A stretch of 16,198 nucleotides of DNA from a bacterium (GTDB taxonomy: Bacteria; T1Sed10-126): NCBI GenBank assembly GCA_003554945.1, contig PWHN01000118.1:1-16198 (forward strand), given 5' to 3'. The notes under the pieces were generated by a model. That model was not told the DNA's origin. It made no database searches and was given only the letters and a program-made list of their open reading frames with translations. Below, piece after piece: positions 812 to 14,811 of this stretch (the stretch's first letter is position 1; each line of letters starts with the position of its first letter). The position numbers and the translations under genes are program-made.

Positions 812-2132
812 AGTCACTCAACGCCTTTTTTACGAGTTGCAGTTTTTCTTCCATTAACTCTTCGGTGTCCCCCTCCAGGTTGAGTCGCAAAAAGGGTTCT
901 GTATTCGACGGACGGACGTTAAACCACCAGTCGCGATATTGGACGCTGATTCCATCTAACCAGTCTACTTCCCCGTCAGAAAATTCTTTTTCCAGAGCCT
1001 TCATCGCTTTCTCCTTCTCTTCAACCTTGAAGTTTATCTCACCTGATTGGGAGTAACGTTTTAATGGCTCGATGAGCTCGGAAAGTGACTCTGAGCGGTT
1101 GGAGAGGAGATTAAGCAGGTAGAGAGTTGCAATCATCCCGCAGTCGGTGTAGTAGTTTTCCCGGAAGTAATAGTGGCCGGAAAGTTCGCCTCCGAAAATA
1201 CCGTTAACCTCACGCATTTTTGCTTTCATGTAAGCGTGCCCGACTCGATATCTCACCGGCTCGCCGCCATGTTTTTCTATCTCCTCCGGAACCACCCGAC
1301 TTGAACGCAGGTCATAGACAACTTTTTCGGCCTGACTACCGGCCAGAAGTGGTTCAACCAGTAAAGCAGTTATCATGTCGGAGGAGATAATTTGACCCTT
1401 TTCATCGACGAAGGCGGCGCGGTCAGCGTCGCCGTCGAAGGCAATCCCGAGGTCGTAGTCGCCGGACCGGACTTCAGCCTGCAAATCTTCCATGTTTTCA
1501 GCTTCCAGGGGGTTGGGAATGTGGTTGGGAAAGCTGCCGTCCAGTTCAAAATACATGTCGGTAACTTCTACCGGCAGTTCTGAAAAAATAGGTGGCACGG
1601 TAAGTCCGCCCATGCCGTTGCCGGTGTCAATAGCCACCTTCAGCGGCTTAATTCCTTCAGCAAAGTTCAGAATTGTATCTTTATATTGTTCAAGAAAATC
1701 TTCCTGGCGATAACCCCCCTGTTCAGCAGTGGGTAGATTGTCGTCTTCAATCGCCTGCTCAATTTTATTTATTCCGGTTTCGTAAGCTACTGGTTTGGCC
1801 TCGTCCCGGGAGATTTTGAAACCAATATATTCGGGCGGATTGTGAGAGGCGGTAACCATTACTCCCCCCTGGGCGTCATAGAAGCCGATGGCATTGTAGT
1901 TCATCGGTGTCGAGCAGAGACCGATGTCAATAACGTTTTGTCCGGTCTCCCGCAGTCCCTTTACCAACGCTTCCGAAATTGGTTCCGCCACTTCCCGCAT
2001 GTCGTTGCCCACGACTATTGATCCTTTCTCAAAGAAATTACCCAGTGCAATCCCGATCTTTTCTGCTAGCTCTTCATCAATTTGATCGGGATAAGTCCCT
2101 CTAATGTCGTATGCTTTAAAAACTCCAGCCAT
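798..2132 (-). CDS. manB: Phosphomannomutase/phosphoglucomutase
   Basis: Interconverts hexose 6-phosphate and hexose 1-phosphate, feeding GDP-mannose or UDP/dTDP-glucose synthesis for glycans. All four domains of the alpha-D-phosphohexomutase family are recognisable in 444 residues, a normal length. They contain the catalytic phosphoserine loop TASHNP (94-99), the Mg-binding loop DGDADR (233-238), the sugar-binding GELSGH (315-320) and the phosphate-binding RPSNTEP (407-413). The frame could open at GTG 2141, but that GTG lies inside the Shine-Dalgarno GGAGGTG. ATG 2132 sits 7 bases behind GGAGGT and gives MAGVFKAYDIRG, the typical family start, so I use it. It precedes and overlaps serS. Mannose versus glucose preference cannot be read from the sequence. 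The reductase-type gene at 13858 makes a mannose route plausible. Confidence 0.93.
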   Translation of the reverse strand: MAGVFKAYDIRGTYPDQIDEELAEKIGIALGNFFEKGSIVVGNDMREVAEPISEALVKGLRETGQNVIDIGLCSTPMNYNAIGFYDAQGGVMVTASHNPPEYIGFKISRDEAKPVAYETGINKIEQAIEDDNLPTAEQGGYRQEDFLEQYKDTILNFAEGIKPLKVAIDTGNGMGGLTVPPIFSELPVEVTDMYFELDGSFPNHIPNPLEAENMEDLQAEVRSGDYDLGIAFDGDADRAAFVDEKGQIISSDMITALLVEPLLAGSQAEKVVYDLRSSRVVPEEIEKHGGEPVRYRVGHAYMKAKMREVNGIFGGELSGHYYFRENYYTDCGMIATLYLLNLLSNRSESLSELIEPLKRYSQSGEINFKVEEKEKAMKALEKEFSDGEVDWLDGISVQYRDWWFNVRPSNTEPFLRLNLEGDTEELMEEKLQLVKKALSDYVST

Positions 2133-2186
2133 TTCGGCCACCTCCAGGTGATATGTAATCTATTATTCTTCAATCTCTGAGCCTTT

Positions 2187-2215
2187 ATTTTAACCCTTCA
2201 GGCGTTACACGGCAA
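2187..2215 (-). promoter_or_regulatory. Candidate sigma70 promoter for the mutase-serS pair
   Basis: Read on the minus strand: -35 TTGCCG (2215-2210), 17-base spacer, -10 TAAAAT (2192-2187), ending about 55 bases before the mutase ATG. Four of six and five of six positions match the consensus and the spacing is ideal. Assigned by eye; no other good pair was seen upstream of this gene. Confidence 0.45.
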
Positions 2216-2257
2216 GTGCTGTGTTTTAACCCCGCCGTCCCCAATCAACCGACGATC

Positions 2258-2280
2258 CCCTCTCCCCTGGAGGGAGAGGG
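2258..2280. repeat. REP-type palindrome (CCCTCTCCC/GGGAGAGGG)
   Basis: Perfect 9-base inverted arms CCCTCTCCC (2258-2266) and GGGAGAGGG (2272-2280) around a 5-base loop, followed by TTAGGCTGAGG. This resembles the palindrome common between genes in many bacterial genomes, where the arm is followed by TTAGGGTGAGG. Its minus-strand translation includes NPLPPGERG, a phrase often seen in spurious proteins called across such repeats. Family assignment is from recognition, not a search. Confidence 0.6.
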
Positions 2281-2479
2281 TTAGGCTGAGGAGGAAAGAT
2301 AAGGTGAGTAGTTACGATTTGGGCTTCGGTAGGTTCTGCTGTTTCCACCGTGAAAGTTGACATTTGAACGATAAAATGGATAATTAATAGGCTTGCAAAA
2401 AACTTTAAACGTAACTGTTTAGCGACCTCGCGTAATTTTGGGAACGTATGATGTTTCAGGTCTTGAACCAATGGTCGTC

Positions 2480-2500
2480 ATTGCGGACTTGATCCGCAAT
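2480..2500. repeat. Short palindrome ATTGCGGA/TCCGCAAT
   Basis: Perfect 8-base arms, ATTGCGGA (2480-2487) and TCCGCAAT (2493-2500), around loop CTTGA, preceded by GTCGTC. The form GTCATTGCGGACTTGATCCG is a familiar dispersed intergenic repeat in several bacterial groups. It is a second repeat type, distinct from the CCGGAATGACG type further along in the same spacer. Confidence 0.55.
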
Positions 2501-2506
2501 CCATTC

Positions 2507-2552
2507 CCCCCCTTTGTCTTTCCCCCTTTCAAGGGGGAAAAAGAAAGGGGGG
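2507..2552. repeat. Long C/G-run hairpin
   Basis: Outer arms CCCCCCTTT (2507-2515) and AAAGGGGGG (2544-2552), a 3-by-3 internal mismatch, then inner arms TTTCCCCCTT (2519-2528) and AAGGGGGAAA (2531-2540) with an almost zero-length loop. The total is 19 base pairs in 46 bases, so it would form a very stable hairpin in RNA or a cruciform. There is no U-run after it, so it is not an obvious intrinsic terminator. It probably belongs to the dispersed repeats. Confidence 0.6.
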
Positions 2553-2589
2553 ATGGTCTTGAACGATAACCGCGTCAAATTCAACATGG

Positions 2590-2746
2590 ATTCCGGCTCG
2601 GGGGCCGGAATGACGTCAAGTTCAAGAACATGAACATTAACAAGATTATGCGTAATTAATGAATTTGAATTAGCTTTCAGCTTTTAGCTTTGAGCTTTAA
2701 ACTGGTGTTTTCCGGCTCGGGGGCCGGAATGACGTCAAAGTCAAGA
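2590..2746 (+). repeat. Composite dispersed repeat, copy A (two CCGGAATGACGTCA hairpins flanking an 81-bp core)
   Basis: Two hairpins bound this element: ATTCCGGC/GCCGGAAT (2590-2611, loop TCGGGG) and TTCCGGC/GCCGGAA (2710-2729, same loop). Each is followed by TGACGTCAA plus a TTCAAG- or GTCAAG-like tail. Between them lie four tandem heptamers of form AGCTTTN (AGCTTTC, AGCTTTT, AGCTTTG, AGCTTTA, starting near 2672). The stretch 2656-2736 recurs inverted at 10689-10769 with only three differences. The pattern fits a non-coding dispersed element that no gene needs. I see no transposase, terminal inverted repeats of an IS, or clear target duplication. Confidence 0.75.
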
Positions 2747-2891
2747 TAAATTCCGGGTTGAATGAACACGGAATATTTTGTCCGAACCACGCTAAACAAG
2801 TAAATTCAAACTTTTTTAATATTGTTATGTGTTAGCTTAAATTGATCTGTTTTTCCCTCGCGGCAGAAAAATAAGAAGGTAAGTGAATGGG

Positions 2892-3581
2892 ATGATTGTT
2901 TTTCGTGAAGTTAGTAAAAAGTTCCGCTGCGGCAGTAGTTTTGAGCAGCTTTTCAGTCCGCTTGAGGTTGAGGTTATTAGCGGCTTAAGTTTTGAACACC
3001 CGGTGGGCGAACCACTTTTGATAACCGGACCTTCAGGTTCCGGCAAATCAGTAATTATTGATTTGCTTGCCGGGCTTTATAGGCCGGATAAGGGTGTGGT
3101 TGAAGTTTTTGGGAAATCCCCGGCAACCAGTCGCGAAGTGCGGGCTGATATTGGAATAGTATGTTCACAGCGAACGGAGCTTGACCAGTTCTTATCCCCA
3201 CGCCGTAATCTACGACTTTTAACCGCCTGGTATAATATCGTCGGTGAAGAAGCTGAAAACCGCGTTGAAGAGACTCTGGATTATGTAGATATTGAGCCGG
3301 GGGCTCGCGATGTTCCATTGGGCGAGCTTTCACCGGGTGTTATAAATCTGGTGAATATTGCCGCCGGCCTGATCTCCTCGCCGCAGCTATTGTTGCTTGA
3401 CGAGCCCGCAACCCATCTTGGACCGACAGCACGGGATAAACTAAAACAACTGTTGAAGGGGCTGAACAAGCAGGGGATGACGCTGGTGGTTGCTTCTAAG
3501 GATGATAGTCTGGTTGCAGATTTATCGCCCCGGAGTATTCATCTCGCCGCAGGAGAACAGGTGAATGTCAATGCCAACTGA
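2892..3581 (+). CDS. ABC transporter ATP-binding protein with altered signature, D- and H-loops
   Basis: Cytoplasmic ATPase partner of the permease encoded immediately downstream (17-base gene overlap). The 229-residue protein has a good Walker A, GPSGSGKS (46-53), a Q-loop Gln (93) and Walker B LLLLDEP (166-172) with the catalytic Glu. Layout and the RNLRLLTAWYNI stretch resemble the DrrA/CcmA-type exporter ATPases. Oddly, the signature LSGGQ is LSPGV (146-150), the D-loop Asp is Gly (177, in HLGP), and the H-loop His is Lys (203, in ASKD). These three motifs act across the dimer, so ATP turnover may be slow or regulatory. The start is ATG 2892 (MIVFREVSKKF, with AAGGT 11 bases upstream); GTG 2883 is too close to that site. 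Substrate unknown. Confidence 0.88.
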   Translation: MIVFREVSKKFRCGSSFEQLFSPLEVEVISGLSFEHPVGEPLLITGPSGSGKSVIIDLLAGLYRPDKGVVEVFGKSPATSREVRADIGIVCSQRTELDQFLSPRRNLRLLTAWYNIVGEEAENRVEETLDYVDIEPGARDVPLGELSPGVINLVNIAAGLISSPQLLLLDEPATHLGPTARDKLKQLLKGLNKQGMTLVVASKDDSLVADLSPRSIHLAAGEQVNVNAN

Positions 3582-10623: not shown

Positions 10624-10939
10624 TGCTCAAACTAAATGTTGTCACCTGGTTTGACAAATTGGCTTCTGTTTAAACCATGCTCGAACTGGACGTCATTCCG
10701 GCCTCCGAGCCGGAAAACACCAGCTTAAAGCTCAAAGCCAAAAGCTGAAAGCTAATTCAAATTCATTAAGTGCGTATAAGCTTGTTCATGTTCTTGAACT
10801 TGATCTTGAATTTGACGTCATCCCGGTTGCCGCACCGCGGTAATTTTTTTGATTGTAGGAAGTAATACGATGTATGCCGGAAGAACGAATATGAACAATA
10901 GCATGCGTGCATATCGTTTTTTTATCAGGGGGTTTTATC
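10624..10939. other. Spacer between the SMC run and the envelope cluster
   Basis: 316 bases without a gene. It contains repeat copy B (10689-10769) and a further TGACGTCATCCCGG half-hairpin near 10813-10826. Repeated TTCAAG/CTTGAA phrases (about 10786-10811) match the flank of copy A. The last 80 bases are unique and end in AGGGGG, the ribosome site of the next gene. I could not find a convincing promoter: TTGACA at 10651 has no matching -10, and TACGAT at 10866 lacks a properly spaced -35. No terminator hairpin with a U-run is visible after the GAF/GGDEF gene. Confidence 0.65.
10689..10769 (-). repeat. Composite dispersed repeat, copy B (inverted relative to copy A)
   Basis: The reverse complement of this 81-base stretch matches 2656-2736 at 78 of 81 positions by direct comparison. 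It contains the hairpin ATTCCGGC/GCCGGAA (10695-10715, loop CTCCGA) and the four AGCTTTN-type heptamers (one reads GGCTTTG). Similarity continues more loosely to about 10826, with a 12-base insertion and a 6-base deletion relative to copy A, ending in a second TGACGTCA-type half-site. Both copies lie between genes. Confidence 0.8.
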
Positions 10940-11914
10940 ATGAAGAGTCTTAAGTATGGTCTTATGTTGATACTAATTGGAATTTTGTTGACCTTTTCCG
11001 CTACTTACGTGCGGGCGCAGTATGATGAAGTGTTAATTAATCGGCGAGTTAATGAAGTTTTTTTTGACTCACTTAATGAGGAACAGCGGATAAAAGTGGT
11101 AAAGGATCGCGAGTATGTCGAGGATTACAGCCCTCGTGAACTGGGGGCTAAGTATCGCTGGGGCTATATACCGGCCGATCGTGAGCCCCCGGCCGCCCTG
11201 GCAGAATGGTGGGAGGGGCTTGGTGACCGGCAGCGTGACCGCCTTCGCCTCTCCTGGTTTCGTCAAAACAGCAACCGTATTGATGTCGACCAGGCCGCCC
11301 GTCTGCTGAATTTGACTGGAAGGTTAAACCAGATACACCGCGAGGTTCTTCGCCAGTGGGAACAACGTCCCGCTGAACTGGAGGAAGTTAAGTTTGATTT
11401 TGAGCCTGAACCGGAAGAAGATCCACCCCCACCAGCGGAAACTGAAGTTCTGGAGGAAGAAGAGCCTGAAGAACCAGAAGAGCCTGAAAAACCCGAGGGA
11501 CCTGAAGAGCCTGAAGAACCCGAAAAACCTGAAGAACCCGAAAAACCTGAAGAACCCGAAGAGCCTGAAGAACCCGAAGAACCAGAAGAACCCGAGGAAC
11601 CTGAAGTGGATGTCCCCGCGGACCCGGATCCCCTTGATGAACCAGTTGTCGATGAACCGCCCGAAGACCGGCGTTTTTACTGGAGTGCCGACGGTGAAAT
11701 CCGGATTATTGAGACCCTGCGGCCGGAAGAGCCGGAGGAAGACCCCCGGGTTCCTGATCTTGATGACCCGCCGCCGGCTGTAGAAGATGTTCCGGCGGAT
11801 CCTGCCCATCGCGACCCTCTTTATGTTGATCCGGAGTGGGACCTGGAAGAACGGCCGGTTGAACCCGAACGGGAAATTGAAATCCCGCCGCCCCCGATTC
11901 GTCGTCCGGAATAA
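10940..11914 (+). CDS. Secreted acidic Pro/Glu-rich protein
   Basis: 324 residues. A clear Sec signal peptide (MKSLKYG, hydrophobic 8-20, likely cut after the VRA-Q region near 25-27). Then a helical domain (about 30-145) with two related copies of a 28-residue motif (FFDSLNEEQR at 41-50 and WWEGLGDRQR at 90-99). An acidic/proline tail follows, containing 15 PEx tripeptides (176-220; mostly PEE, three PEK, one PEG), and the protein ends with PPPP and RRPE. No Cys lipobox, so soluble or envelope-associated. ATG 10940 is preceded by AGGGGG with a 7-base gap. The longer reading from GTG 10907 would place residues ahead of the signal and lacks a ribosome site. Family not recognised. The shared PEE tract links it to the anchored protein at 12656. 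Confidence 0.85.
   Translation: MKSLKYGLMLILIGILLTFSATYVRAQYDEVLINRRVNEVFFDSLNEEQRIKVVKDREYVEDYSPRELGAKYRWGYIPADREPPAALAEWWEGLGDRQRDRLRLSWFRQNSNRIDVDQAARLLNLTGRLNQIHREVLRQWEQRPAELEEVKFDFEPEPEEDPPPPAETEVLEEEEPEEPEEPEKPEGPEEPEEPEKPEEPEKPEEPEEPEEPEEPEEPEEPEVDVPADPDPLDEPVVDEPPEDRRFYWSADGEIRIIETLRPEEPEEDPRVPDLDDPPPAVEDVPADPAHRDPLYVDPEWDLEERPVEPEREIEIPPPPIRRPE
11465..11599 (+). repeat. PEx tripeptide-coding tract (15 units)
   Basis: Nine-base units coding Pro-Glu-X, mostly Pro-Glu-Glu, inside the secreted protein gene at 10940. Codons vary (CCT, CCA, CCC; GAA, GAG), with a local 18-base tandem near 11519-11554 coding PEKPEE twice. Fifteen full units, then PEV ends the run. Confidence 0.85.
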
Positions 11915-12014: not shown

Positions 12015-12071
12015 ATGAGTAATTATATGCATTCTTCTGCTAGTCGGGTGAAAAATCGTGAAAACAATTGA
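12015..12071 (+). CDS. Possible 18-codon leader ORF overlapping the TPR gene start
   Basis: ATG 12015 follows AGGGG (12006-12010) by 4 bases, a better ribosome site than the downstream gene has. The 18-residue frame (MSNYMHSSASRVKNRENN) ends at TGA 12069-12071, inside the first codons of the TPR gene that starts at GTG 12058. A ribosome finishing here could restart at the nearby GTG. No attenuator-type codon run is visible. It may be chance. Confidence 0.25.
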   Translation: MSNYMHSSASRVKNRENN

Positions 12072-12663
12072 GGCAGTTGAGTGGCTTTATCACAAGGGAA
12101 GTCAGTTTCTTGAAAAAAACGATACCGAATCAGCACGTACCCGTTTTCAGCGAATGTTGGAAATGACCCGTGACTCCACCTGGGTGGAAAGGGCTAATGC
12201 TGGTCTGGCTCGAGTTTATCTTGCCGAACAAAATTACTTCTGGGCTTATGATCACGTTCGTCGTGCTTTGAAGCGCAGTCCCAATAATCCCGAGTATCAC
12301 TACCTTAAAGGACGGATTCATCTTGCCCGTCAGGAGTGGGACGAGGCGGCCAGCGAAGCTCTTAAAGCTGTTGAGGAGGATCTTGAAAACAGTCGCTACT
12401 ACCATTTGCTTGGCGCCGCCACCTATCATTGTGAAAGTTATCGCTCCGCCCAACGATTTCTAAAGTGGGCAATTGAATGTGATCCTGAAAACCCTGAACC
12501 ACGCTTTGAACTGGCTCAAATTGAAATTAACGAGGGTAATTATCAAAGCGCCCTCTCGCTTCTAAAAGATTCGCTTGAACTGACCGAAAACAAACAGAAA
12601 GTTCGTGATGCAATCCGTTCCATTCAAGAAAACTGGAAATTAAAGGGTGTAAACCATGGATAA
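12058..12663 (+). CDS. Cytoplasmic TPR-repeat protein
   Basis: 201 residues made almost wholly of about five tetratricopeptide repeats (roughly 8-41, 45-78, 79-112, 113-146, 147-180). Typical TPR positions are visible, such as GLARVYLAEQNYFWAYDHV, YLKGRIHLARQEWDEAA, ALKAVE and FELAQIEINEGNYQSAL. TPRs are protein-protein docking surfaces and carry no enzymatic function. No signal peptide or membrane helix, so cytoplasmic. Start is GTG 12058 with GGGTG 7 bases upstream; no earlier in-frame start looks better. Its 3' end overlaps the next gene by 8 bases, so the two products are made together and may interact, since both carry TPRs. Partner unknown. Confidence 0.85.
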   Translation: MKTIEAVEWLYHKGSQFLEKNDTESARTRFQRMLEMTRDSTWVERANAGLARVYLAEQNYFWAYDHVRRALKRSPNNPEYHYLKGRIHLARQEWDEAASEALKAVEEDLENSRYYHLLGAATYHCESYRSAQRFLKWAIECDPENPEPRFELAQIEINEGNYQSALSLLKDSLELTENKQKVRDAIRSIQENWKLKGVNHG

Positions 12664-13846
12664 TCGCTCTAAGTTGCTATTTCTTTTTTTAATAATTGCC
12701 CTGCTGGCTGGTGGCTATTATCATCGCGAGACTGTCCTCGATCTGGTTGGCCTGGGCGAAGAGGAACCGGAACCGACAGAAGAGGTCGTCGATATGGAAG
12801 AACCCGATGAACCCGATGAACCAGAACCGGACGATCCCTCCGACGCAGTTGATACTATACTTGTTGCCCCCGAAGGGGGACCCGTTTTTGAACCTGAGGA
12901 ACTGACCGTTGAAATCGGTGATACTATCGCCTTTGAGTGGCTCGGCGGCGGTCACAATATCACGGTTCTCAACCAGCCCGCCGATGCCGACTGGCCAGGT
13001 GTTTCGCAGACACATGACACCGGCTATATCCATGTTTACACTTTTAATATAGCCGGCTACTATGAATTTCAGTCGGATCCCTACGCAGCTGAGGACATGA
13101 GTGGGTTAATAACAGTTGAAGACCCCGGTGATCCAGAAGAACCCGATGAACCGGAGGAACCAGAAGAGCCTGAGGAGCCGGAAGAACCTGAGGAGCCGGA
13201 AGAGCCTGAGGAACCAGAAGAACCGGAGGAACCAGAAGAGCCTGAAGAACCGGAGGAACCAGAAGAGCCTGAAGAACCCGAGGAACCAGAGGAACCTGAG
13301 GAGCCGGAAGAACCGGAGGAACCTGAAGAGCCTGAGGAGCCGGAAGAACCAGATGAACCGGAAGAACCGGAGGAACCAGAGGAGCCGGAAGAACCGGAAG
13401 AGCCTGAGGAGCCTGAAGACCCTGAGGAACCCGAAGAGCCCGAGGAACCCGAAGAACCAGAAGAACCAGAAAAACCCGATGAAGTGGATGAGGAGCTGTT
13501 GCCCGAAGATTCTGGCGAAAGACGCGGTTATACTGAGCCGGGGAGGTTTCCGATAGCTCATCCCCCAAAAGAATTCAAGCAGGCGCGTGATCATTTTCAG
13601 GCGGGAGATTATGAACAGGCGCGTGAAAAACTGGAGGAACTGGTTGAGTTATATCCGCGTTCGGCCAACGTTAATTTTATGCTTGGTGTGATTCATTTTG
13701 ATAGTGGTGATTTTGACCAGGCACGTCCTTTCTTTGAGGCCGGAGCCGAGCAGGATCATGACCCGCAGATCCGGGCCTGGAGCCGCCAGTATTATCAGCG
13801 AATTGACCGGGTAGAAGAAGAAATGGAAGAAGAGGCTGAAGAGTAG
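12656..13846 (+). CDS. Membrane-anchored cupredoxin-fold protein lacking copper ligands, with PEE(39) spacer and C-terminal TPRs
   Basis: 396 residues: N-terminal anchor (about 6-22, LLFLFLIIALLAGGYY; no lipobox Cys), acidic linker, a plastocyanin/halocyanin-like domain (about 68-155), a 117-residue run of 39 Pro-Glu-Glu-type tripeptides (160-276), and two TPR units (about 305-385). The cupredoxin aligns without gaps to the usual pattern: GGGHNI keeps one ligand (His100) and Met148 is kept. The Cys position is Ser140 and the second His is Tyr143 (SDPYAAEDM for the family's C-x-P-H-x4-M). A type 1 copper site is therefore unlikely. Most of the protein should face outside. ATG 12656 has AAAGGGTG 6 bases upstream. 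It overlaps the TPR gene before and sits 11 bases ahead of the reductase gene. Probably a scaffold or binding protein, not an electron carrier. Confidence 0.87.
   Translation: MDNRSKLLFLFLIIALLAGGYYHRETVLDLVGLGEEEPEPTEEVVDMEEPDEPDEPEPDDPSDAVDTILVAPEGGPVFEPEELTVEIGDTIAFEWLGGGHNITVLNQPADADWPGVSQTHDTGYIHVYTFNIAGYYEFQSDPYAAEDMSGLITVEDPGDPEEPDEPEEPEEPEEPEEPEEPEEPEEPEEPEEPEEPEEPEEPEEPEEPEEPEEPEEPEEPEEPEEPEEPEEPDEPEEPEEPEEPEEPEEPEEPEDPEEPEEPEEPEEPEEPEKPDEVDEELLPEDSGERRGYTEPGRFPIAHPPKEFKQARDHFQAGDYEQAREKLEELVELYPRSANVNFMLGVIHFDSGDFDQARPFFEAGAEQDHDPQIRAWSRQYYQRIDRVEEEMEEEAEE
13133..13483 (+). repeat. 39-unit Pro-Glu-Glu coding repeat
   Basis: 39 in-register nine-base units: 34 encode PEE, three PDE (units 2, 25, 39), one PED (32), one PEK (38). 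All four Pro codons and both Glu codons are used, so DNA identity is mixed while the peptide is nearly invariant. Units 11-13 and 14-16 (13223-13249 and 13250-13276) are an exact 27-base tandem duplication, showing recent slippage or unequal exchange. Confidence 0.92.
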
Positions 13847-13857
13847 TTTCGACCGGT

Positions 13858-14811
13858 ATGTCCACCTCTTTTATTACCGGCATAAACGGTTTTGCCGGTA
13901 GTTTTCTGGCCCGCCATCTTCTCGAAGAAGGGAAACGGGTTAGTGGGCTGGTAAAACCCGGCTCAAGTTTGAAATCTTTGGTAGACATCCAGGACCGGCT
14001 TCAACTTCGTGAGGCTGATATTCGTGATACTCAGTCAATTCAGAAGGTTATTGAAGAGTTAAAACCGTCCCGAGTCTATCATCTTGCTGCTTTTAGCAAT
14101 CCCGCCGCCTCAACGGAAAATTTCCGTTTAACTCTGGAAACCAACATCTTCGGCCAGCAAAATATTCTCTCTGCCTTGCGGGACTGTCGCTGCTCGACAA
14201 AAATCCTTGTGGTTGGTTCGGCTCTGGAATATTCTCTTGAAAACGCCGACCTGCCACTTACCGAAGAGTCCGCTTTGGCTCCGGTGAATACTTATGAGCT
14301 TAGTAAAATCGCTCAGGACCTGATGGGTTACCAGTTTTATCGTCAACATGAGCTGCCCGTTGTTCGTGTCCGTCCCTTTAACCACAGCGGACCCGGCCGT
14401 CCCGCGGCTTATGTGCTCTCTTCTTTTGCCCGCCAGCTTGCAGAAATTGAAGCGTCCAAACAGGAGCCGATTCTGCGCACCGGAGACCTTGACCTCCACC
14501 GTGATTTTACCGACGTCCGTGACGTTGTCCGGGGCTACCGGCTCCTTATTGAAAAGGGCCGGCCCGGCGAAGTTTACAACCTCTGCAGCGGTCAGGACTA
14601 CTTGCTGCGCGACCTGCTTGACCATCTGCTTGATCTAACTGAAGTAGAAGTAGAAGTTTTATCGCCGGCGGAGAACGATCCTGAACTGAAAAGCATTTTC
14701 GGCGATAATAAAAAAATCAAATCAATCACCGGCTGGACCCCTTCAATACCAATTGAAAAAACCCTCGAGGATCTCCTCAACTACTGGCGCCACCAGATAA
14801 ATAAAAATTAA
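13858..14811 (+). CDS. rmd: NAD(P)-dependent sugar-nucleotide reductase, GDP-6-deoxy-D-mannose reductase type
   Basis: Extended short-chain dehydrogenase of nucleotide-sugar metabolism. Family enzymes reduce GDP-4-keto-6-deoxy-D-mannose (made by Gmd from GDP-mannose) to GDP-D-rhamnose. 317 residues: Rossmann motif GINGFAG (8-14), Ser at VVGS (121), catalytic Tyr146-x3-Lys150 in YELSK, and RPFNHSGPGR (172-181) with the RDFTDVRDVVRGY stretch that is typical of Rmd and its GDP-mannose dehydratase relatives. No Gmd gene is in the window. ATG 13858 is 11 bases after the preceding stop with a weak ribosome site, so translation is probably coupled. A related 4,6-dehydratase or 4-epimerase is possible; the FNH-x-GPG form favours Rmd. 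It follows envelope-protein genes, which suits surface glycan synthesis. Confidence 0.82.
   Translation: MSTSFITGINGFAGSFLARHLLEEGKRVSGLVKPGSSLKSLVDIQDRLQLREADIRDTQSIQKVIEELKPSRVYHLAAFSNPAASTENFRLTLETNIFGQQNILSALRDCRCSTKILVVGSALEYSLENADLPLTEESALAPVNTYELSKIAQDLMGYQFYRQHELPVVRVRPFNHSGPGRPAAYVLSSFARQLAEIEASKQEPILRTGDLDLHRDFTDVRDVVRGYRLLIEKGRPGEVYNLCSGQDYLLRDLLDHLLDLTEVEVEVLSPAENDPELKSIFGDNKKIKSITGWTPSIPIEKTLEDLLNYWRHQINKN

Follow-up and report, generated by a model that had tools for sequence, protein, structure and literature searches.

The protein encoded at positions 12656–13846 on the forward strand of the window, which is the whole stretch of 16,198 nucleotides analyzed and comes from a little-known salt-lake bacterium, carries a plastocyanin-type cupredoxin domain in which two of the copper ligands have been replaced, joined to a long acidic-proline (PEE) spacer and TPRs. 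From its sequence the protein is almost certainly not a type 1 copper protein, and it is likely to be metal-free. More probably than not it is a copper-free periplasmic scaffold or adaptor, anchored in the inner membrane and comparable to SufI/FtsP.

In the ORF list of the window the gene is an ORF of 396 amino acids with an ATG start, in the position given by the initial annotation, and a Shine-Dalgarno-like GGGTG lies 5' of the ATG. The protein begins with a hydrophobic helix (residues 3–21; 12656–12718), found in the AlphaFold2 model and having its hydropathy peak at residue 5, which reads as a signal anchor without a lipobox Cys. This is followed by a short acidic stalk with a net charge of -19 (residues 23–66; 12722–12853), recognized from its composition and with low pLDDT in the full-length model. 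The plastocyanin/halocyanin-like cupredoxin domain occupies residues about 67–158 (12854–13129), the spacer residues 161–274 (13136–13477), and helices within residues 305–395 (13544–13843) form two TPRs and a C-terminal capping helix. All of these features are on the forward strand, and the full-length AlphaFold2 model places helix, cupredoxin, coil and TPR helices in series, with the spacer as coil and the TPRs as helical hairpins with a pLDDT of about 80–96. The TPRs score above the cut-offs of both TPR_16 (49 bits against 32.7; E-value 7.9e-13) and TPR_19 (46.5 bits against 25). The net charge of the whole protein is -128.

The neighboring genes are on the same strand. A TPR protein of 201 amino acids is encoded upstream (12058–12663; ORF list and Pfam) and has an orthologue, 64% identical, in the sister genome G001. 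The end of this gene, with its stop, overlaps the start of the cupredoxin ORF by 8 nucleotides, and a gene for an NAD-dependent nucleotide-sugar epimerase/dehydratase (13858–14811; GDP_Man_Dehyd, E-value 1.4e-56) begins 11 nucleotides downstream of the cupredoxin ORF stop. Because of this overlap and short gap the three genes are probably co-transcribed. Promoter and terminator scans gave counts near the shuffled expectation. A recent origin of the TPR region of the cupredoxin protein by copying of the TPR gene upstream is not supported, the two sharing 21% identity over 47 residues (E-value 0.025). Further upstream, an acidic, secreted protein (10907–11914) was found from the ORF list and the EEP-run count of the genome to have a tract of its own with 16 EEP-like triplets.

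The plastocyanin fold of the domain is indicated by both sequence and model. The Pfam model PF00127 (Copper-bind) matched the domain, in a search with the first 169 residues of the protein, with 31.6 bits against a curated cut-off of 21.2 (E-value 2.3e-7). The NCBIfam models for halocyanin, pseudoazurin and plastocyanin all matched as well, each well under its own cut-off; the halocyanin model TIGR03102 reached 37 bits (E-value 3e-9) against a cut-off of 93.8. A match to the plastocyanin family was also found in PHROGs. The initial annotation had aligned the domain without gaps to the C-terminal loop of halocyanin and plastocyanin, and the phmmer match to plastocyanin 1b3i (E-value 1.5e-6), in which the ligand loop is free of gaps, agrees with this. 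An AlphaFold2 model of the domain, made from an alignment of 25 rows, had a mean pLDDT of 91. The solved structures nearest to it were plastocyanins (Foldseek, 1iuz, E-value 1.1e-8), and plastocyanin 2plt superimposed with a Z-score of 16.0 and an rmsd of 1.3 Å over 91 residues, as for a cupredoxin beta-sandwich. Since the rows of its alignment are plastocyanin relatives, the model cannot count as evidence separate from the sequence homology. The structure prediction that had been proposed as a check thus returned a cupredoxin fold, and the matches in Pfam and the PDB together with the predicted fold rule out a chance resemblance or a different beta-sandwich.

A type 1 copper site requires His, Cys, His and usually Met. 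In the window domain, His, Ser, Tyr and Met stand at the corresponding positions 100, 140, 143 and 148, just as first read, so that the axial Met (Met148) is present while the Cys thiolate is replaced by Ser140 and only one of the two His (His100) is left, Tyr143 taking the place of the second. There is no Cys in any of the 396 residues. A rearranged type 1 site is therefore impossible, and an alternative arrangement of Cys and His, which would have spoken against the first reading, was rejected on the same ground. Ser140 is encoded by TCG, which lies two base changes away from any Cys codon, and Tyr143 (TAC) represents a further, separate change; a single sequencing error is thus insufficient and unlikely as the source of the ligand loss. 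Since the fold is that of plastocyanin but the protein nowhere has the required Cys, the earlier statement that it is not an electron carrier is supported with respect to type 1 copper. Annotation by PF00127 would call the protein copper-binding, which is almost surely wrong in the sense of type 1 copper.

We surveyed cupredoxin domains in 386 genomes, reading the ligand states from the domains in the fetched loci. In most of these domains the Cys is retained; it is missing from the window domain, the domain of locus L049 (His-Ser-Tyr-Met), two domains of L035 and one of L051. In L035, which belongs to a third lineage, three tandem cupredoxin domains are encoded at 1429–3273, the first intact and the second and third near-identical and lacking both the Cys and the second His; these two have Ser at the Cys position and, depending on the alignment, Glu or Asp in place of the second His. 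In L051 a Cys-less and an intact cupredoxin gene adjoin (10–456 and 1417–1800) and are likely a duplicate pair. In a second phylum, that of G066 and of L049, a small secreted orthologous cupredoxin was found in four of five genomes, representing four genera. In all four members (L049, L058, L059, and L060) Ser replaces the Cys, the sequences being YEYFSVPHEYEGM, YEYFSVLHEFENM, YEYFSVPHEFAGM, and YEFFSPPYEFEGM. Three of them read His-Ser-His-Met, and L049 has Tyr at the second His. The family is kept over the genera at 49–60% identity, and in two of its genomes (G207 and G338) a relative with an intact His-Cys-His-Met set is encoded as well; L033 is an intact relative from the same genome as L058. 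A search of the G051 phylum turned up no additional Cys-less proteins. That the change from Cys to Ser is kept across four genera means that such domains can be stable.

On these sequences, replacement of Cys by Ser is recurrent among plastocyanin-type domains. In a tree for which the two ligand columns had been masked out, the Cys state had to change four times, the window domain did not group with L049, and the end branch of the window domain was long (1.53 changes per column). An independent origin of the Ser state in the window and in the second-phylum family is favored, and only favored, because neither a constraint placing the Ser rows together (AU test, p = 0.14) nor one joining the window to L049 alone (p = 0.19) was rejected. 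Judging by the second-phylum family, plastocyanin-type domains without copper may be a class that has been overlooked in bacteria. A recurrent and conserved class of this kind is the strongest extension beyond the initial annotation and merits a survey of its own. It is conceivable, though we put it forward tentatively, that the change from Cys to Ser has, repeatedly and independently, made conserved binding modules of the envelope, free of copper, out of bacterial plastocyanin-family domains; the window protein would then be an elaborate case, with the module on a long strut with TPRs, serving as an adaptor that spans the envelope.

Only a single genome was found to have the fusion itself. 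The window makes up one entire contig of a 121-contig assembly of 2.2 Mb, and its host phylum is represented in the collection by two genomes, to which the search of the phylum was confined. An orthologue search of the genome contig collection gave no match to the window protein. For the sister genome the matching record is that of isolate CSSed10_354m (PWOD01000036.1), and CSSed10 is a dataset from soda-lake sediment of moderate salinity (PMC6146748). On the syntenic contig of the sister genome the order of the SMC, GAF and TPR genes agrees with that in the window. The cupredoxin gene is absent from the syntenic place, and the TPR gene is directly followed by a gene reading as UDP-glucose dehydrogenase. 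The same genome has a Ppx/GppA-like gene, as judged by reading, between a small membrane-protein gene and the GAF gene (L022, 13656–14612), which is absent there in the window. The sister genome encodes one PF00127 protein, which differs from that of the window and keeps Cys, His and Met. The genome of the window has no second PF00127 domain over the cut-off, and COX2 is absent from both genomes of the phylum; no partner for copper electron transfer is therefore evident. Among other cupredoxin proteins, no TPR was found in 10 longer sampled ones or in 4 others scanned with Pfam, the fusion partners in the sample being GSDH, PKD-dockerin, FlgD_ig and ASH-type domains, and literature searches for cupredoxin together with TPR and for copper-free plastocyanin-like divisome proteins returned nothing relevant. 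The order of cupredoxin, acidic spacer and TPR, unfamiliar to the initial annotation, was thus not met again in the sampled proteins or in these literature searches.

The spacer consists of 38 consecutive [ED][EDK]P triplets, as determined by regular expression, codon analysis and tandem repeats; the long acidic-proline tract described earlier as PEE(39) is confirmed with one triplet less. Of the triplets, 34 are exactly EEP and are written with 11 different nonamers, so that the amino acid sequence has been preserved despite variation among the DNA units. Only four genes of the genome contain EEP runs of at least three units, i.e., the cupredoxin ORF, its neighbor at 10907, one gene on contig C102 and one on C112, and none was found in the sister genome. 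The C102 protein (L073, 2006–2737) resembles the window protein in having an N-terminal hydrophobic helix, an acidic PEE spacer and a folded binding domain, which is a SPOR domain where the window protein has cupredoxin and TPR. In the C112 protein the EEP run lies N-terminal of a hydrophobic segment, and TPRs are present as well. Because the runs occur in four genes including that of a SPOR protein, the tract looks like a portable, generic spacer in this genome.

The initial annotation placed the protein at the cell surface. Both genomes encode a BamA-type Omp85 (E-value 6.0e-45 in the genome of the window), and the cell is thus diderm with an outer membrane, so that the location should rather read as probably the periplasm. 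In our proposal the N-terminal helix would be embedded in the cytoplasmic membrane and hold the remainder on the outer side, and the cupredoxin domain would be a rigid beta-sandwich near the membrane, in which Ser, Tyr, His and Met now occupy the former copper end and leave it usable as a protein-contact face. The PEE tract may form a charged, extended strut across the periplasm, about 35 nm long if the whole of it were polyproline-II-like, and the TPRs at the far end could capture an envelope partner, perhaps for peptidoglycan, division or polysaccharide work. We infer, as did the initial annotation, that the domain is reused for binding or structure, which fits the TPRs, the anchor helix, the PEE spacer in common with the SPOR protein, and the precedent of SufI/FtsP.

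SufI/FtsP of E. coli is a cupredoxin-like, metal-free envelope protein with a proposed scaffold role (PMC2661564), and indicates that a protein of this kind can be an envelope scaffold. The likeness lies in the cupredoxin-like fold and the loss of copper ligands, and would extend to a periplasmic location and the binding of envelope machinery; SufI is a soluble three-domain relative of multicopper oxidases, whereas in the window protein only one plastocyanin-type domain is combined with an anchor, a spacer and TPRs. The early nodulin-like phytocyanins (ENODL) are blue-copper relatives which are unable to bind copper and persist in plants (PMC4499708). They are plant phytocyanins and share with the window domain the loss of copper binding within a blue-copper family. 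To our knowledge none of them has a TPR or a PEE spacer. With plastocyanin, halocyanin and pseudoazurin (PF00127, TIGR03102) the window domain has in common the fold, homologous sequence, the first His and the axial Met; it differs from them by its Ser and Tyr, its anchoring and fusion to spacer and TPRs, and its scores under the NCBIfam cut-offs. The second-phylum proteins share the Ser, and L049 also the Tyr, but are small (about 160 amino acids), have neither spacer nor TPR, and stand apart from the window domain on a tree that does not reject one origin.

Three other explanations were weighed against a copper-free scaffold or adaptor. His100 could, together with Met148, Ser140, Tyr143 or Asp141, form a weak or type 2-like site in a sensor or buffer of copper or another metal. 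The retention of His100 and Met148 is in line with this, as is the His-Ser-His-Met pattern in three of the four second-phylum members, but two of the three equatorial type 1 ligands, Cys among them, are lost and no metal-related gene adjoins in the window, and we regard such a site as unlikely. We give about the same low weight to a decaying remnant, i.e., a cupredoxin domain drifting without selection while the TPRs alone do the work of the protein. The long end branch and the absence of the gene from the sister genome would agree with decay; however, the frame is open, the positions that determine the fold are kept, as seen from the Pfam score and the pLDDT of 91, and the PEE tract is maintained at the protein level over its 11 nonamers.

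It is less likely still that the protein is an enlarged haloadaptive surface protein, in which the acidic tract is merely a salt-adapted linker and the envelope role is general and without a specific partner. Its net charge stands out against the pI of 9.0 of the cytoplasmic SMC and 6.8 of the GAF protein, and the record of the sister genome comes from soda-lake sediment. However, TPRs are usually partner-binding modules, and the confinement of EEP runs to four genes argues against general haloadaptation as the reason for the tract.

Elsewhere in the window we observed a 26-bp palindromic element, TTCCGGCTCGGGGGCCGGAATGACGT, in three copies at 2591–2616 (+), 2710–2735 (+), and 10690–10715 (-), one of them with one mismatch. 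The number of copies expected by chance is 0, and the element is probably a REP-like or MITE-like dispersed repeat.
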